Source: an uncultured Cocleimonas sp.
GTDB taxonomy: Bacteria; Pseudomonadota; Gammaproteobacteria; Thiotrichales; Thiotrichaceae
DNA: 64,000 bases
Direction of reading: 5' to 3'
NCBI RefSeq assembly: GCF_947495625.1
Contig: NZ_CANLZW010000011.1
Coordinates: 62,001 to 126,000, forward strand
Position numbers and translations under genes: made by a program. The notes under the pieces are model-generated. The model had not been told where the DNA came from. It made no database searches and was given only the letters and a program-made list of their open reading frames with translations. Positions 45,214-52,058 of this stretch are shown here, one piece after another (position 1 is the first letter of the stretch; each line of letters starts with the position of its first letter).

Positions 45214-48141
45214 TTAATAGTTTGGAACAGTCGTTAACCGTGTAGATATTTTATGCTCAACACCGTTAACATCAGTGATCAAATAATTCGTGACGATTAC
45301 ACTGGTACAAAAATTACTGCTAGGAAATGGCGGCGCTTCGGTGTTGTTATTTCCTGTGAAGCAGTTTGAATTAAGAAAGGCCTCAGAAACCCAATCTTCA
45401 AGCACACCACCAAATAAGTTGGCGTTTGTTAGGGTCAAAGGCAAGATGGATTGGTAATTTGAACTACAAGATGCTATTTGTTGACCGTTATCATAATACG
45501 TTTCACTAATAGCACCGGTTGAAAAATCAGAAGCACTTAATGAAAAAGGCTTAGTCGTTTCGCCTTCACATAGTACGCTAAAACCAACATCTCTTTGAAT
45601 ATCAACCGCTTTTATTGATGAGACACCTTCAATCAATGATAAATCCTGATCGATAGATCCGCTAAAACCACTTTCTTCTGTAACTGTAAGGGAGGAAACA
45701 TTAGGAATACCTGCGAGGTTAGGAAGGATAGAAATTTCTGAATTGGTTAATGGTGTGATGGGTTGTAAATTTTCACCTGTTGGTCCTGGATTTGGGTTAT
45801 TAGTGCCTGATACCAGCTCTAGGCTTATATCGATAGCAGTATCAGTTTTTTCAACGTTAACAGCTTTGGTGAGATCGTTATAACCATCGGCTTTAGCAAT
45901 GATTGTATATTTACCTGGGGCTAAATATAATCGTGCATTTCCGTTAGCATCTGTAGAGCCAAAAGCGATAGGAAATGAGCCATCTTCAGCTTTTATATCA
46001 AGAGAAATGTTAGGAATTTCCGCTTGTGAGTCCTTATCTGTCGTAACAGCCATAATATTAGGAATAATAAATGCGTAGCTGTAATCGCTTTCTACCGACA
46101 CTTTACTTGCCTGATGTGTGAAGAGAATTTTTTCTCCTTCGACTTTGTAATAGGTCTTGCCTGTAGGAAAGTTTTGAAAAACCAATGGACTATAATCTGC
46201 AATGTTTCCACTTAAATACTCGTCATAATCAACAGATGTAGCATTTGGTTTAACGCTTACCGCATAGTTATATGAATCGGTTTTCAATTTACCATTGGCA
46301 GATGACAATGAAATTTCTATTATCGGCTTGAAAGGTTCAGGAAATCTATGCGTAACTTTTACTTCTCTACCCTGTTCGATCTCCTTTGCCATGGATAGCG
46401 CATTGGCAGCATTGACTATAGGAATTGGGTAAGTAAGTGATGACGTATCCTCATTAAAAGGACTCACATATCTTTCACTAGCGGAAGAAGTCGCACTATT
46501 AATTAATATTGATTTTACATTAGCAGCAGTCAGTTTCTGATCAACAGCTAAAATGAGTGATGCAACACCTGTAACTAATGGAGCAGAGGCTGATGTACCT
46601 GAAAATGCTCTACTCGTATTACCTCCATACTCATCACTCGTATAATATTCGTCAGTATCCTGAAATGATTCAATAATATTTCTGTCATTTTTAGTGCTTT
46701 TATAAGCCGTGGGTGCGGCAATATCAATACTCTCACCGTAGTTAGAATAGTATGGCAGTCTATTATCGTTAACATGTGCAGCGACAAAAAGTACGTTGTC
46801 TTTTTTTGCTAATTCAACATCGCCATCCTTTTCATGATAATGCAAAGCAGGATTCCCATGCAGACCATCTACACCAAAAACCCCCTTACTATTACCTGCA
46901 CCGTTGCCTATTCCATTACCTGCAGAAAAAACGAATAGCTTGTCTGAAAATTCTGTAGCTAATTTTCTGAAATCACTCGTTTGAGCTAAAGATATCCTAT
47001 TCATTTCTTCAACACTATCTGCATCGCTGGGATCAAAACGTGTTGGAATACCCCTTGGCAACAGAGACAATGATACGTTTGATAGCAAAATATCATCTCG
47101 TGATATCAATTGACTTAAATCGAAATATCCCCCTTTTCCTGCTATCAATTGGTTGGTCCAGTTAATTCCCGATATTCCTTTATTGTTATTGCTTATTGCG
47201 CCGATTGCTCCTGCGACACCTGTTCCATGAGATATCTCAACGGAATCAGATGTTGCTTTAGTCGCTTCTTTAAATCGACCTCTTAAATCTTCATGCTGCG
47301 TATGAAAACTTGCAGAACCATCCACAATCCCGATATAGAAATCACTATTGCCTGTGGATATATCCCAGGCATTTTCCATACCCATATGTTCTAAATGCCA
47401 ATTATCCCCAGCATCATCAAAAGCACTGCCATCATTAGGAGTCTTTTCTGCTAGGCGACTAAAATCCTTACCTTCAAATACTCTAGAGTCAACACTACCG
47501 ATTCCTGCGATTGCTTTTATGGTATTTATATCAGTCTGAGACTGCACAAGGGTTTCATCAAATTCAACCAGTAAACCGCGTACTTCATCAAAATCGATAA
47601 TATTGAAACCTTGATAATTACTAACGATTGCTTTGATAGCTGATTCGCTTAGTGTCTCGGAATAAACCCACGCTTGATTTAATACTATCCCAATTTGCTT
47701 TGATAACTCCTGAGTAGCGTCATAGCCTTCTAATTTTGAATTATCAAAAGGGAAGTATTTTTCTATTGAAAATTGGGTTTCTAGTGTTTCCCCAGTTGCA
47801 GATGTAGCACTTAATTTATAGGTACCAGAGACTGCAGGCGTCAATAACACAGACTTGCCATCAATAGATGCGTTCAACTTTAGATCAGATGCAGCAGGTT
47901 CGATCATAACCCGCCAGGAATAATCTGTTATCACTGTATCAGTATTATCCTCAATACTGATCTTAAGCTCTTCGTTTAGAGAGGGAGAAGCGCTATATAC
48001 GATAGTAGTTTTGGCGAGGCTTTCAATCGCAGGAGAATTGGTAGTCGGTTCAGACGTAGAATTTGAACTTGAACCGCCACCTCCACAGCCCGTTAATCCA
48101 TACAGCAAACTCGATACAACTATAAATACACGCAACTTCAT
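45214..48141 (-). CDS. S8 subtilisin-like serine protease lipoprotein
   Basis: About 975 residues from ATG 48141, which has GGAG upstream; an in-frame TTG at 48165 is less likely. A lipobox LTGCGGGGSSS marks a lipoprotein. The catalytic triad is Asp in YIGIVDGSASFH (about 274), His in SHGTGVAGAIGA (about 305) and Ser in FSGTSASAPLVTG (about 517), with the oxyanion Asn in VFSAGNGIGNG. An N-terminal region of about 240 residues may be a pro-domain. Downstream are beta-sandwich repeats, including a carboxypeptidase-regulatory-like segment (NARLYLAPGKYTIIAKADGY). It probably acts at the cell surface on proteins. Confidence 0.88.
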   Translation of the reverse strand: MKLRVFIVVSSLLYGLTGCGGGGSSSNSTSEPTTNSPAIESLAKTTIVYSASPSLNEELKISIEDNTDTVITDYSWRVMIEPAASDLKLNASIDGKSVLLTPAVSGTYKLSATSATGETLETQFSIEKYFPFDNSKLEGYDATQELSKQIGIVLNQAWVYSETLSESAIKAIVSNYQGFNIIDFDEVRGLLVEFDETLVQSQTDINTIKAIAGIGSVDSRVFEGKDFSRLAEKTPNDGSAFDDAGDNWHLEHMGMENAWDISTGNSDFYIGIVDGSASFHTQHEDLRGRFKEATKATSDSVEISHGTGVAGAIGAISNNNKGISGINWTNQLIAGKGGYFDLSQLISRDDILLSNVSLSLLPRGIPTRFDPSDADSVEEMNRISLAQTSDFRKLATEFSDKLFVFSAGNGIGNGAGNSKGVFGVDGLHGNPALHYHEKDGDVELAKKDNVLFVAAHVNDNRLPYYSNYGESIDIAAPTAYKSTKNDRNIIESFQDTDEYYTSDEYGGNTSRAFSGTSASAPLVTGVASLILAVDQKLTAANVKSILINSATSSASERYVSPFNEDTSSLTYPIPIVNAANALSMAKEIEQGREVKVTHRFPEPFKPIIEISLSSANGKLKTDSYNYAVSVKPNATSVDYDEYLSGNIADYSPLVFQNFPTGKTYYKVEGEKILFTHQASKVSVESDYSYAFIIPNIMAVTTDKDSQAEIPNISLDIKAEDGSFPIAFGSTDANGNARLYLAPGKYTIIAKADGYNDLTKAVNVEKTDTAIDISLELVSGTNNPNPGPTGENLQPITPLTNSEISILPNLAGIPNVSSLTVTEESGFSGSIDQDLSLIEGVSSIKAVDIQRDVGFSVLCEGETTKPFSLSASDFSTGAISETYYDNGQQIASCSSNYQSILPLTLTNANLFGGVLEDWVSEAFLNSNCFTGNNNTEAPPFPSSNFCTSVIVTNYLITDVNGVEHKISTRLTTVPNY

Positions 48142-48289
48142 GGTGATTCTCCAAAGGTGTAGCACCTTGTTATTTTTCGAAAGTGCTTACGAACTTACTA
48201 GAATTCTAAGATAGATATGTAAAATAATGGTTAATAGGCTGTAAAACGAATGTAAAAGTATCGTTTCTACCTGTTTTATAATATGTTTT

Positions 48290-48394: not shown

Positions 48395-48425
48395 AATGAA
48401 TCCGATTGACCATCAACTTGCGTAA
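48395..48425 (+). promoter_or_regulatory. Candidate ECF promoter upstream of the sigma gene
   Basis: AATGAATCCG (48395-48404), 12 bases, then CTTGCGTAA (48417-48425). The same two blocks with the same 12-base spacing occur at 49941-49971 upstream of the DUF4331 gene. TGAATCC and CGTAA would be the -35 and -10 elements. Confidence 0.65.
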
Positions 48426-48464
48426 TGTGAAATATATGTTAACTCTTTAATAAAAGGCATTATT

Positions 48465-49178
48465 TTGAATAACGCAATTATGACAAATTCAATCTCTTCA
48501 CTAGCTAAAAAAGATAGTGGACGAACCATAATGTCTCCTATACTGTATCTTGATGAAGACTTATATGATTCTCAGGAGATTTTAATGGGGCAAGAACAAG
48601 ACCCCTTATCAGCATTACTCGCGCGTATTGAAAAACGTGACGAGGCAGCGATGGGAGAACTATACGATTCTACGGTGAAGCGTGTTTATGGGTTGGCGAT
48701 GAAAATCGTGATTAAACCTGAGCTTGCAGAAGAAGTTGTGGGTGATGTGTTTATGCAAGTCTGGAATAAAACCAAGACTTTTGATGAAAACAAGTCAACT
48801 CCAATATCGTGGATATTGATGATGTGTCGAAGCCGCGCTTTAGACAAATTGCGTCGTGAGCGACCTCAACTGAATAACAATACTTTTGAGTTAGATCAGA
48901 ATATGACTCAAGACCCAGATACGGTGACACCTTATACAGAATTACAAGGTATCGATGTATCCAGCCGTATTCATGAAGCTTTGCAGTTATTAAATGAAAA
49001 GCAGCGTCTGGTGATTACTCTGGCCTTTTATGAAGACATGACTCAAACAGAAATAAGCGAACATACTGGCGAACCGATTGGAACCGTTAAATCGAATATT
49101 CGCCGAGCCCAGCTGATTTTAAGAGAAACCTTATCCCGCGATGATTTTGCAAATGGAGGGATTTATGGCAAAGCATGA
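48465..49178 (+). CDS. ECF-type RNA polymerase sigma factor
   Basis: A 237-residue sigma factor. Region 2 reads LYDSTVKRVYGLAMKIVIKP then EEVVGDVFMQVWNK and ISWILMMCRSRALDKLR. Region 4 has LNEKQRLVITLAFYEDMTQT then EISEHTGEPIGTVKSNIRRA. A 45-residue N-terminal extension precedes region 2. The TTG at 48465 has AAAAGG seven bases upstream; ATG 48480 is an alternative. It overlaps the next gene, a cupin anti-sigma candidate, by 14 bases. It probably drives its own operon and the DUF4331 gene through the shared motif. Confidence 0.92.
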   Translation: MNNAIMTNSISSLAKKDSGRTIMSPILYLDEDLYDSQEILMGQEQDPLSALLARIEKRDEAAMGELYDSTVKRVYGLAMKIVIKPELAEEVVGDVFMQVWNKTKTFDENKSTPISWILMMCRSRALDKLRRERPQLNNNTFELDQNMTQDPDTVTPYTELQGIDVSSRIHEALQLLNEKQRLVITLAFYEDMTQTEISEHTGEPIGTVKSNIRRAQLILRETLSRDDFANGGIYGKA

Positions 49179-49671
49179 CACTAAAAACAATGTCCTTGAT
49201 GACGACGTTCTAGAAATGTTGGCTGAGGCACATGAACCTGTCGAGATTGATGACAGCGTGGTATTGCGCATGCGTAATAACCTGATGGCAAATATCACTG
49301 GTAATAAATCAGCAACGGCTGAAACAGTTACTGATGAAAAAGCAGACGTTGATTTTGATATAGTCCCTGCTTCTGATGAAGACGGATGGATTGAAGCTTT
49401 CCCTGGTGGCAGTTTTAAAGTGCTTCACGGAGATTTGAGTAAGCCTTCATCACTATTGTCTTACCTTATCAAATTAGAGCCTGGCTTTAATATGGACGGT
49501 CACGGCCACCCGTTTGATGAAGAAACATTGATGCTTGAAGGTGATTTAACCTTGGGAGACATTCATCTAAAAGCGGGTGATTTTCACTTTGCTGCAGCGG
49601 GTGTAACGCACGGTAAAGTCAGCACAAAAAATGGCTGCATGGCATTTATGCGGGGCGCATTACCCATCTAA
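49165..49671 (+). CDS. ChrR-like cupin, candidate anti-sigma factor
   Basis: About 168 residues from ATG 49165, with GGAGGG upstream. The C-terminal cupin has metal-type residues in MDGHGHPFDEETLMLEGDL and FAAAGVTHG (two His, Glu, His). The N-terminal 70 residues are acidic and helical but contain no H-x3-C-x2-C zinc motif, unlike the ChrR anti-sigma domain. Overlap with the sigma gene suggests it senses a redox or small-molecule signal and controls sigma activity by a variant mechanism. Confidence 0.8.
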   Translation: MAKHDTKNNVLDDDVLEMLAEAHEPVEIDDSVVLRMRNNLMANITGNKSATAETVTDEKADVDFDIVPASDEDGWIEAFPGGSFKVLHGDLSKPSSLLSYLIKLEPGFNMDGHGHPFDEETLMLEGDLTLGDIHLKAGDFHFAAAGVTHGKVSTKNGCMAFMRGALPI

Positions 49672-49713
49672 ATCATTCAATGTAATTCTATATTTACATA
49701 TTTGTACGTACTA

Positions 49714-49750
49714 AAAAGCCACAGTTTCTTTTTTAATGACTGTGGCTTTT
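49714..49750 (+). terminator. Intrinsic terminator after the cupin gene
   Basis: Perfect 12-bp stem AAAAGCCACAGT (49714-49725) with 49739-49750, loop 13 bases, ending in TTTT. Confidence 0.88.
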
Positions 49751-49940
49751 GTATTTCTGGCTGATCTTATTTTTCTCTAGCGATAATCTATTTCTAATCA
49801 AGCTCTCATCAATTTCTAACCAAACTCTTATCTATTCACTTTTCATTACTGCTGACTTGTTGCAAAAACAAACTGCCAATACTTTTCTAGATTCACAAAA
49901 CTGCCTCCTATCAAGACGTTTCTAATTCTTTATAAAAATA

Positions 49941-49971
49941 AATGAATCCGTTTTTTCTTTTGCTTGCGTAA
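49941..49971 (+). promoter_or_regulatory. Candidate ECF promoter upstream of the DUF4331 gene
   Basis: AATGAATCCG (49941-49950), 12 bases, then CTTGCGTAA (49963-49971). Both blocks and the spacing are identical to the motif in front of the sigma gene. It lies about 90 bases before the start codon. Confidence 0.65.
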
Positions 49972-50062: not shown

Positions 50063-51559
50063 ATGAAATCATTACCCATTTCTACTAAAAAGACGCTACT
50101 AGCAGCATTTGTAGCTGCCACCTGCACTGCCACTGTAACTACTGCATCAGCATCTAGTCACCGTGAAGCGCCATTCATTACCGCTAACCCAAAAGTCGAC
50201 GCGACTGATTTCTATATGTTCAGAAGTTACGAATCTGGCAGAGAGGGCTACGTCACATTGGTTGCAAACTACAATCCATTACAAGACCCATACGGCGGAC
50301 CTAACTATTTTAGTTTATCACCAGAAGCGCTTTATGAAATTCATGTTGATAACAACGGCGATGCAGTTGAAGACATTACTTTCCAGTTTAACTTCAACAA
50401 TATGCTGGGCAATGAAGGCAATGGAATTACGCTACCCATTAACGGCAAAGATATTGCAGTTCCATTAAAGAATGTCGGCGCAGTCACTTCTGCTGATAGT
50501 AGTGCGCTGAATTTTAAAGAAACCTACAATATCACAATGGTAAAAGGCGATCGCCGAACTGGAACAAAATCAGCGGTGATAGCGGCAAGTTCAGGTGACG
50601 ATACCTTCACTAAACCTTTTGATAACGTAGGTGAAAAAACGTTTGGAGTTGAGTCTTACGACACTTACGCAAAAACATTTATCCATGACATCACGCTATC
50701 AGCCTGTCCAACTGGCTCACAAGATGGACGTGTGTTCGTTGGTCAACGCAAAGACTCTTTCGCCGTTAACCTCGGTGAAATTTTTGACCTGGTAAACACC
50801 GATCCCTTAGGTGCAACTGATGGAGAATCGGATGATCTTGCTGATAAAAACGTTACAACATTAGCGCTTGAAATGCCTATCGCTTGTTTAACCGGCGGCA
50901 ATGAGAATGGAATTATTGGTTCATGGACTACAGCAAGTTTGCCGCAAGTACGCGTCCTTGATCCAACACCCACATTCAATCAACCAGCAGTCAATGGCGG
51001 AGCCTGGACACAAGTTTCAAGATTAAGTATGCCATTAGTTAATGAAGTGGTCATTGGTCTACCTGACAAGAATCGATTTAACTCAAGCGAACCAAAAGAT
51101 GATGGTCAGTTTGCCGACTATGTAACGAACCTTGCCTTACCCGCATTGCTTGAAGCATTGTTTGGTGTACCAGCACCTACCGTTGAAAATCGCCCTGACT
51201 TAGTGGCTACTTTCTTAACCGGTTTTACTGGAGTAAATGCGAATGGTTCGCTGGCTGAAATGCAACGCTTGAACACAAATATCGCACCAACGGCTAAAGC
51301 CGATCAAAGTAACTTTGGTGTGGTTGCCGGTGACAATGCAGGCTTCCCAAATGGTCGTCGCCCCGGTGATGACACCGTCGATGCCGCATTACGCGTATCA
51401 ATGGGCTTACTTTGTCACTTACCTCTAGGTTTGTGTGATCCGGCGGATGCTCCAGCAGGTGAAGCACCTATTACAGACGGCGTCGCACAAAATGCAACTC
51501 AGTTTGACGCAGTATTCCCATATCTAACTACACCAATTCCTGGTTCAACTAACCAATAA
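50063..51559 (+). CDS. DUF4331 exported protein
   Basis: A 498-residue secreted protein. The signal peptide ends at about residue 30 (TATVTTASA-SSHREAP). SSHREAPFITANPKVDATDFY is the DUF4331 hallmark, with an HxE pattern. The rest is beta-rich, with NxD/GDD loops (RRPGDDTVDAALRVSMGLLC) and several Cys that could form periplasmic disulfides. The family is often associated with ECF sigma factors and redox stress, and its function is unknown. The ECF-type promoter motif upstream links it to the sigma pair. Confidence 0.85.
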   Translation: MKSLPISTKKTLLAAFVAATCTATVTTASASSHREAPFITANPKVDATDFYMFRSYESGREGYVTLVANYNPLQDPYGGPNYFSLSPEALYEIHVDNNGDAVEDITFQFNFNNMLGNEGNGITLPINGKDIAVPLKNVGAVTSADSSALNFKETYNITMVKGDRRTGTKSAVIAASSGDDTFTKPFDNVGEKTFGVESYDTYAKTFIHDITLSACPTGSQDGRVFVGQRKDSFAVNLGEIFDLVNTDPLGATDGESDDLADKNVTTLALEMPIACLTGGNENGIIGSWTTASLPQVRVLDPTPTFNQPAVNGGAWTQVSRLSMPLVNEVVIGLPDKNRFNSSEPKDDGQFADYVTNLALPALLEALFGVPAPTVENRPDLVATFLTGFTGVNANGSLAEMQRLNTNIAPTAKADQSNFGVVAGDNAGFPNGRRPGDDTVDAALRVSMGLLCHLPLGLCDPADAPAGEAPITDGVAQNATQFDAVFPYLTTPIPGSTNQ

Positions 51560-51579: not shown

Positions 51580-51840
51580 ATGAAAATCAAATTAATCACG
51601 ATTGGCATCGTTTCTCTGTTAGGTTTGAACGCTTGTAATCACGGTAGTTCTAGTAGCAACGATAACCCAGCGCAAACCAACGTTGAATCTTTTACAGATC
51701 AAAACTCGAACAGTCAGTCATTAGTTATAGCTGATGGTGGCCTGCTTAAAAGTGACCTCAATGCATTATTTGGAAATGCAGATGATGAACCAAAAGCAGT
51801 TGAAGATGGCGATTCTGTACAAGATGTAATAGATCGTTAA
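51580..51840 (+). CDS. Small lipoprotein after the DUF4331 gene
   Basis: An 86-residue protein with a lipobox SLLGLNACNHGSSS, Cys at about residue 19. The remainder is acidic and Ser/Asn-rich (residues 20-86), with no recognised domain. AGGAG lies upstream and it is only 20 bases after the DUF4331 stop, so it is probably cotranscribed and may be its membrane-bound partner. Confidence 0.7.
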   Translation: MKIKLITIGIVSLLGLNACNHGSSSSNDNPAQTNVESFTDQNSNSQSLVIADGGLLKSDLNALFGNADDEPKAVEDGDSVQDVIDR

Positions 51841-51867
51841 TAATATTTTAATTTAAAAGAAAACAGT

Positions 51868-51900
51868 AACGCGAGGCCTTATGGGTTTCGCGTTTCTCAT
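51868..51900 (+). terminator. Weak terminator after the lipoprotein gene
   Basis: AACGCGA (51868-51874) pairs with TCGCGTT (51888-51894), 13-base loop, then TCTCATT. The stem is short. Confidence 0.45.
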
Positions 51901-52022
51901 TATCATTTAAGACTCTTCATATCAGGCTTAGGCTCACAAAGGACTACATTTAGTTCAGAATACAGAACATAAAATATAGAATGGTTAGTGCTGGCAACAT
52001 CAAAACAGAACCCGATGATGTT

Positions 52023-52058
52023 GTGATGTAGTGATGTAGTGATGTAGTGATGTAGTGA
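52023..52058. repeat. 8-base tandem repeat GTGATGTA
   Basis: Four perfect GTGATGTA units (52023-52054) plus a partial GTGA. Non-coding. Confidence 0.9.

Follow-up and report, generated by a model that had tools for sequence, protein, structure and literature searches.

The window analysed here, a stretch of 64,000 nucleotides from an uncultured Cocleimonas sp., carries the two-block sequence AATGAATCCG-N12-CTTGCGTAA twice, once before the gene of an ECF sigma factor and once before a gene of the DUF4331 family. The locus raises the question whether both sites are promoters, which sigma factor would read them and how far such a regulon might extend.

Paired sites and the operons behind them

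The two sites (31 bases each, Table 1) matched the pattern with 0 mismatches and had unlike spacers, so the identical blocks at equal distance described in the initial annotation are exact. Even with up to 3 mismatches allowed, neither strand of the 64-kb window contained a further match (expectation 0.02), and none of 100 shuffles of the same window contained two matches. The genome-wide search that the initial annotation had proposed, with TGAATCC-N17-CGTAA, returned three forward matches and no reverse one in the whole genome (4,603,868 bases, 89 contigs), against 0 matches for the reversed pattern in the same genome. With ATGAATCC-N15-TGCGTAA and up to 2 mismatches there were 14 sites, of which 3 were exact and 11 had two mismatches, one-mismatch sites being absent; the 11 two-mismatch sites were set aside because the reversed control yielded 8 matches at this threshold, and, given the gap between them and the 3 exact sites, the genome has three clear sites. 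Looser patterns gave one extra site each, on the reverse strand at C52:22497 (TGAATCC-N17-CGTA) and at C30:32620 (TRAATCY-N15-TGCGTA).

The third site (G000:C2:113322-113350; L001:1501-1529) precedes the gene of a cytochrome P460-like probable lipoprotein. From its first base to the ATG of this gene there are 79 bases; the encoded 195-aa protein carries an apparent signal sequence, a probable lipobox and the sequence CRSCH (CxxCH heme motif), and matched Pfam Cytochrome P460 with 95.9 bits (cut-off 27).

Table 1. Positions in the window of the predicted promoters, genes and hairpins of the two operons
Feature	Coordinates	Strand	Basis
Predicted ECF promoter, sigma/cupin operon	48395..48425	+	Exact two-block match; conserved before the orthologous sigma in some relatives
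-35 TGAATCC; -10 region TGCGTA	48397-48403; 48419-48424	+	Predicted sigma/cupin promoter
ECF sigma factor, 197 aa from ATG 48585	48585..49178	+	Pfam Sigma70_r2 + Sigma70_r4_2
Putative anti-sigma, Cupin_7 domain	49165..49671	+	Pfam Cupin_7, 44 bits (cut-off 27)
Intrinsic-terminator-like hairpin, 13-bp stem, 11-nt loop	49714..49750	+	Follows the sigma/cupin operon, precedes the DUF4331 promoter
Predicted ECF promoter, DUF4331 operon	49941..49971	+	Exact two-block match; conserved before DUF4331 in relatives
-35 TGAATCC; -10 region TGCGTA	49943-49949; 49965-49970	+	Predicted DUF4331 promoter
DUF4331 protein, 498 aa, apparent signal peptide (by eye)	50063..51559	+	Pfam DUF4331, 471.6 bits (cut-off 27)
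Small probable lipoprotein, 86 aa, lipobox LNAC (by eye)	51580..51840	+	ORF, begins 20 nt after the DUF4331 gene
Terminator-like hairpin behind the lipoprotein gene	51868..51894	+	Fold of 51845-51910, -18.2 kcal/mol, z -4.1

The sigma factor showed Sigma70_r2 (48.7 bits) and Sigma70_r4_2 (48.5 bits), both above the Pfam cut-off, and scored 91.4 bits against TIGR02937 sigma70-ECF (cut-off 42.9); it has regions 2 and 4 only, as expected of an ECF sigma. Its mechanical ORF begins at TTG 48465, and we take ATG 48585 as the probable start, since AGGAG lies just upstream and many relatives (193-200 aa) begin there; the leader would then measure about 150 nt. The sigma also matched designed pentatricopeptide proteins over about 31 residues of linker; these matches were dismissed as low-complexity. 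The sigma and cupin genes share 14 nt, and the hairpin behind the pair (fold of 49700-49760: -19.5 kcal/mol, z -6.8) was missed by a simple terminator scanner because the scanner allows loops of 8 at most. A large subtilase (Peptidase_S8; probable lipoprotein by eye) is encoded on the minus strand at 45214-48165, divergent from the sigma operon.

The predicted DUF4331 promoter is A-rich upstream and T-rich in the early spacer, and the operon that it would serve is flanked on either side by terminator-like hairpins. A homologue of the small lipoprotein adjoins DUF4331 in relatives; the lipoprotein itself had no match in Pfam or NCBIfam. For the DUF4331 protein, the sequence search found no related solved structure, the scan of viral contigs no relative, and the single-protein structure prediction was unusable (pLDDT 33.0). 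In the open-licence literature (5.39 million papers), we found no mention of DUF4331 or PF14224, nor of DUF4331 together with ‘sigma factor’. Past the lipoprotein, the intergenic region contains a tandem array of TGATGTAG (5.4 copies, window 52016-52058). In the loci of nine relatives (L102, L104, L105, L107, L110, L111, L113-L115) a TPR protein is encoded after DUF4331, and six of these loci have a HupE/UreJ_2 protein there as well; neither gene lies directly downstream of the operon in the window. A GGDEF-EAL protein is encoded downstream of the DUF4331 operon in G014 (L102:1948-4200, minus strand), and its family occurs in three loci.

Conservation of the motif among relatives

The family set comprised 60 genomes, including Cocleimonas flava (G004) from the genus of the window genome (G000). 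The sigma was found in 23 of them (E <= 1e-30), DUF4331 in 19 and the cupin protein in 24 (E <= 1e-15). Sigma and DUF4331 co-occurred (15 genomes with both, 4 with DUF4331 only, 8 with the sigma only, 33 with neither; Fisher p 2.5e-5), as did cupin and DUF4331 (16 with both, 3 with DUF4331 only, 8 with the cupin only; n = 60, p 2.7e-6), although both p-values are too favourable because the genomes share ancestry. Fifteen of 17 full-length DUF4331 loci lie within about 10 kb of a sigma or cupin gene. Of the other two, G016 has the genes on another contig, and G037 carries DUF4331 without the motif upstream of it and, at the cut-offs applied, with neither sigma nor cupin. G007 has the sigma and DUF4331 with no cupin match. 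In G021 (about 490 contigs) motif and DUF4331 are present and no sigma (E <= 1e-30) or cupin (E <= 1e-15) was found. G008 likewise has the motif and DUF4331 with no sigma match, and its sigma was probably lost to an assembly gap, since a cupin fragment sits at a contig end. In C. flava DUF4331 had no match, yet the sites before the sigma and P460 genes are kept.

In other genera, too, sigma, DUF4331 and P460 genes have the motif upstream, oriented towards the gene. It was scored over 13 positions upstream of 43 genes, among them 21 of the 23 family sigmas, 17 of the 19 DUF4331 genes and the P460s (the sigmas of G040 and G049, retrieved without long flanks, were left out, as were the partial DUF4331 genes of G008 and G021, each with a TGAATCT site). 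A site of at least 11/13 was present in forward orientation in 28 of the 43 upstreams and in reverse orientation in two (the sigmas of G014 and G007), where it corresponds to the predicted promoter of a divergent DUF4331 gene. In the non-redundant set without the own genome, this score was reached in 10 of 17 sigma, 10 of 15 DUF4331 and 3 of 3 P460 upstreams, compared to 32 of 2000 random segments of the same loci, a conservative comparison because the background segments contain the target sites themselves. The other 7 of the 17 sigma upstreams (G014, G053, G025, G007, G006, G001 and G020) scored 10/13 or less, so autoregulation through a TGAATCC-type motif is not seen everywhere.

A motif-blind enumeration of 5+5-mer dyads with gaps of 10-21 placed AATCC-N16-GCGTA first, with 16 of 36 upstreams against 12 of 2000 background segments, and 20 random sets peaked at 3-4. 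These 36 upstreams exclude the three of the own genome and, among the 40 others, four near-copies (sigma_G009, DUF_G009, sigma_G059 and sigma_G056); one of them, upstream of a second G020 sigma, is additional to the 17, 15 and 3 upstreams scored above, and they end at the mechanical start, which hides the site of DUF_G023 (13/13 in the scoring of 43 genes). A variant, CCAATCC, stands before DUF4331 in G013, G028, G009, G053 and G006, and the -10 match is weaker in the first four of these. The DUF4331 and P460 sites (n = 20) exceed the sigma sites (n = 13) in A within the 12 bases before the -35 (p 8e-5) and in T in the early spacer (p 0.002), a comparison of related rows that includes the near-copies and the second G020 sigma. 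As a lead, the A-richness would fit stronger effector promoters with a UP-like A-tract. At the genus level, conservation before the sigma gene extends past the -10, with ATGTGAAATATATG in G000, G004 and G046.

How many other genes carry such sites was estimated from the pattern TRAATCY-N15-TGCGTA, which gave 45 sites in the 60 family genomes versus 18 for the reversed control. For 21 of the 45, a sigma, DUF4331 or P460 gene follows within 350 bases; the remaining 24 (by hand count, 13 overlapping a stop-free frame of at least 110 codons, 7 intergenic and 4 unclassified) are not far above chance, and the regulon is therefore probably small. Four of the 24 are leads to further members. P460 homologues were found in 4 of the 60 genomes (E <= 1e-25), in all four with an upstream site of 13/13.

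Single sites were also noted before other genes. In G020 (L143, G020:C2:94317) TGAATCT-N17-CGTA precedes a BD-FAE-type hydrolase, a probable lipoprotein, and members of a hydrolase family that includes a BD-FAE protein adjoin the sigma/cupin genes in L105, L106, L109, L110 and L111 (two of them near-copies). TAAATCC-N17-CGTA stands before similar small exported proteins in L142 (G013) and L145 (G032), the one from G013 matching DUF7282, and an exact TGAATCC-N17-CGTA (L087:2576, G016:C74:49575) before the gene of a Thioredox_DsbH (DUF255) protein that apparently has a signal peptide. The G020 hydrolase, the exported proteins of G013 and G032 and the Thioredox_DsbH protein of G016 are possible lineage-specific members of the regulon.

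Beyond the family, a profile of the cupin protein found 13 of 274 class genomes (E <= 1e-20), 12 of them outside the family. In all 12 stretches fetched from these other families a related sigma gene lies beside the cupin gene, and DUF4331 is present on 5 of the 12 (in one case with a lower score, 142.9 bits; some of the stretches are no more than short contigs). ATCC-N16-CGTA stands before 6 of the 12 sigma and 4 of the 5 DUF4331 genes, and the remaining upstreams (6 of 12 and 1 of 5, respectively) lack ATCC-N15..17-CGTA; in the background, ATCC-N15..17-CGTA occurred in 171 of 4000 random 500-base windows. Three of these genomes have an identical -35 at sigma and DUF4331, namely ACATCC (G251), TGCATCC (G139) and TGATCC (G095). 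The N16 spacer was seen at five sites (sigma_G023, sigma_G058, DUF_G025, DUF_G006 and sigma_G189, the last from another family). Since ATCC-N16-CGTA precedes sigma and DUF4331 genes in other families, the TGAATCC-N17 of the window seems to be a variant, specific to its lineage, of a promoter of the form ATCC-N16-CGTA.

The sigma factor, its cupin partner and known systems

The closest solved structures to the sigma by sequence were SigK (4nqw, 5.1e-26) and RpoE (2q1z, 1.4e-23), and the best NCBIfam model was PRK09646 (SigK; 137.7 bits, below the cut-off of 226). In the sigma tree, a branch (100/99) separated five ChrR-linked sigmas and 2q1z from 29 sigmas of the window system (17 from the family, including that of G007, where the cupin had no match, and 12 from the class) together with SigK, whose place is unsure because of its long branch. 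By its sequence, the window sigma thus appears to be separate from the ChrR-linked sigmas and to fall outside the ECF11/RpoE-ChrR grouping. A place in ECF19 with SigK does not fit either, with PRK09646 below its cut-off and a cupin protein as the partner.

The partner has 168 aa, about 45 N-terminal residues followed by the Cupin_7 domain. Against the TIGR02451 model of ChrR it reached 26.2 bits (cut-off 124.5), matching from model position 56 on, and the HxxxCxxC zinc motif was found in none of 19 aligned proteins (the window protein and 18 relatives). The pattern H-x-H-x3-E-x29-H, by contrast, is present in the cupin domain of all 19; the ligands of the window protein (H113, H115, E119 and H149) are invariant in the 18 aligned rows and have the same spacing as H141, H143, E147 and H177, given as the ChrR cupin ligands in PMC6852236. 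In the N-terminal part L11 is invariant and D14, L19 and R37 are nearly so; a structure model of the cupin protein, made with two sequences, showed two helices there at a confidence too low for use (pLDDT 36.7). Judged by these features, the partner is not a ChrR proper. According to the same paper, inhibition by ChrR needs zinc in the anti-sigma domain and the response needs the cupin domain (PMC6852236); as only the cupin domain is kept here, the part retained would by analogy be the sensing part. Gene order and family resemblance are the basis on which we regard the cupin protein as a putative anti-sigma factor. The strongest Cupin_7 match of the own genome, a canonical ChrR candidate on C53 (247 aa), was rejected, as no adjoining sigma was seen by eye among ORFs of at least 90 codons in its 3.3-kb locus.

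The known systems nearest to this arrangement are RpoE-ChrR of Rhodobacter sphaeroides (ECF11) and RpoE2-ChrR of Shewanella oneidensis. They share with the window an ECF sigma gene followed by an overlapping gene for a cupin-domain partner and an autoregulated promoter with an ATCC core and CGTA (predicted for the window); RpoE-ChrR also has equally spaced cupin ligands. Unlike ChrR, the window partner lacks the N-terminal zinc-binding residues (His, His, Cys, Cys) and is short, and the sigma lies in a separate clade. The promoters agree in part: compared to the ECF11 form TGATCC-N16-CGTA, also given for Shewanella in the available part of PMC4336711, where the start site of an RpoE2 promoter with CGTA and an ATCC core is mapped, the window has TGAATCC, and the spacer is one base longer in most family sites, N16 being found in other families. 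None of the Shewanella regulon genes named there (photolyase, cyclopropane synthase and periplasmic glutathione peroxidase; PMC4336711) follows one of the three own-genome sites. The likeness to TGATC/CGTA-type sites of ChrR-linked sigmas drawn in the initial annotation holds: ATCC-N16-CGTA precedes 4 of 5 same-class sigmas linked to ChrR proteins (above the TIGR02451 cut-off). Two points qualify the link to ChrR: the partner does not count as a ChrR proper, and in the tree the sigma stands apart.

SigK-RskA of M. tuberculosis (ECF19, 4nqw), in which RskA is membrane-bound, offers the closest solved sigma and the best NCBIfam model, and differs in that the window partner is a cupin protein. 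RskA is described as a class I anti-sigma without a zinc motif, and about 44% of the class I anti-sigma domains of the studied set as non-zinc-binding, without Hx3Cx2C (PMC7406223). The window partner resembles these zinc-less proteins in lacking Hx3Cx2C, but its N-terminal part, for which the fold model is that of low confidence mentioned above, is no longer than about 45 residues and continues into a ChrR-like cupin.

Reader of the sites and a proposed circuit

Very probably, both sites in the window are promoters read by the ECF sigma encoded at 48585-49178, with a third promoter driving the P460-like probable lipoprotein; that transcription starts at the sites and that this sigma reads them, we infer from the comparisons of sequence above. 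Autoregulation and the membership of DUF4331 and the lipoprotein in the regulon, both proposed in the initial annotation, are supported by the same two-block site before both genes in several genera, its constant orientation, the absence of dyad symmetry, the terminator-like hairpins that bound the DUF4331 operon, the linkage and the co-occurrence.

The sites might be true ECF promoters and yet be read by another ECF sigma of the genome, or by several, which we consider unlikely. The own genome yielded 17 candidates for the sigma query, although only one passed E 1e-30; the second sigma of G020 (L117:13568-14142, G020:C78; Sigma70_r2 and r4_2) has a TAAATCT-N17-CGTA site of its own, and G021 carries the motif without a detected cognate sigma. 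Against such a reader, several genera have the motif upstream of the gene for the window sigma itself; sigma and DUF4331 genes adjoin each other or occur in the same genomes; and C. flava retains the sigma site without a DUF4331 match. The second sigma gene of G020 lies a few kilobases from a DUF4331 operon.

It is more improbable still that the blocks are a classical transcription-factor site common to both operons and no promoter. Two separated conserved blocks can also be half-sites, and the genus-level conservation beyond the -10 of the sigma gene (G000, G004 and G046) would suit an operator; however, the blocks are neither inverted nor direct repeats of each other, the sites face the downstream gene, and CGTA with the ATCC core matches the promoters of ChrR-linked sigmas and of Shewanella RpoE2 (PMC4336711). 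The neighbour families annotated among those common to at least five loci (TPR, HupE/UreJ_2, hydrolase and ABC transporter) contain no DNA-binding regulator other than the sigma. A chance match or a copied intergenic segment, which the presence of just two copies within the window might suggest, is highly improbable with 0.02 window matches expected, differing spacers and flanks, and a motif that recurs before orthologous genes of other genera.

With the window sigma as the reader, the sigma would transcribe its own operon, including the cupin regulator, in a positive feedback, and separately the DUF4331-lipoprotein operon, while the promoter elsewhere in the genome would drive the cytochrome P460-like probable lipoprotein. 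The cytoplasmic cupin protein would hold the sigma through its short N-terminal part (about 45 residues) until a metal-dependent or oxidative signal at the ChrR-like cupin site freed it, and the freed sigma would increase its own amount along with those of a few exported proteins. By analogy with ChrR, singlet oxygen or an organic peroxide might act as the signal. The comparison with related bacteria shows that the proposed circuit is old. A circuit of this kind, with a sigma, a cupin protein without the zinc motif and DUF4331, was not found in the open-licence literature searched.

More tentatively, the locus may belong to a stress circuit widespread among gammaproteobacteria. Its ECF sigma would be under the control of a ChrR-type cupin sensor that carries a minimal, zinc-free pair of helices in place of the zinc anti-sigma domain; its conserved core output would be the exported DUF4331 protein, which would then serve envelope defence, and the signal would have to act on the cupin site alone. 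DUF4331, a family of unknown function, would thereby gain a regulator and partners (the small lipoprotein and cytochrome P460), which give hints for functional tests, and the predicted promoter can be searched for in further genomes to extend the regulon. The cupin protein would be a naturally occurring ChrR-like sensor that lacks the zinc anti-sigma domain, and its comparison with ChrR could help to show which of the ChrR metal sites senses.
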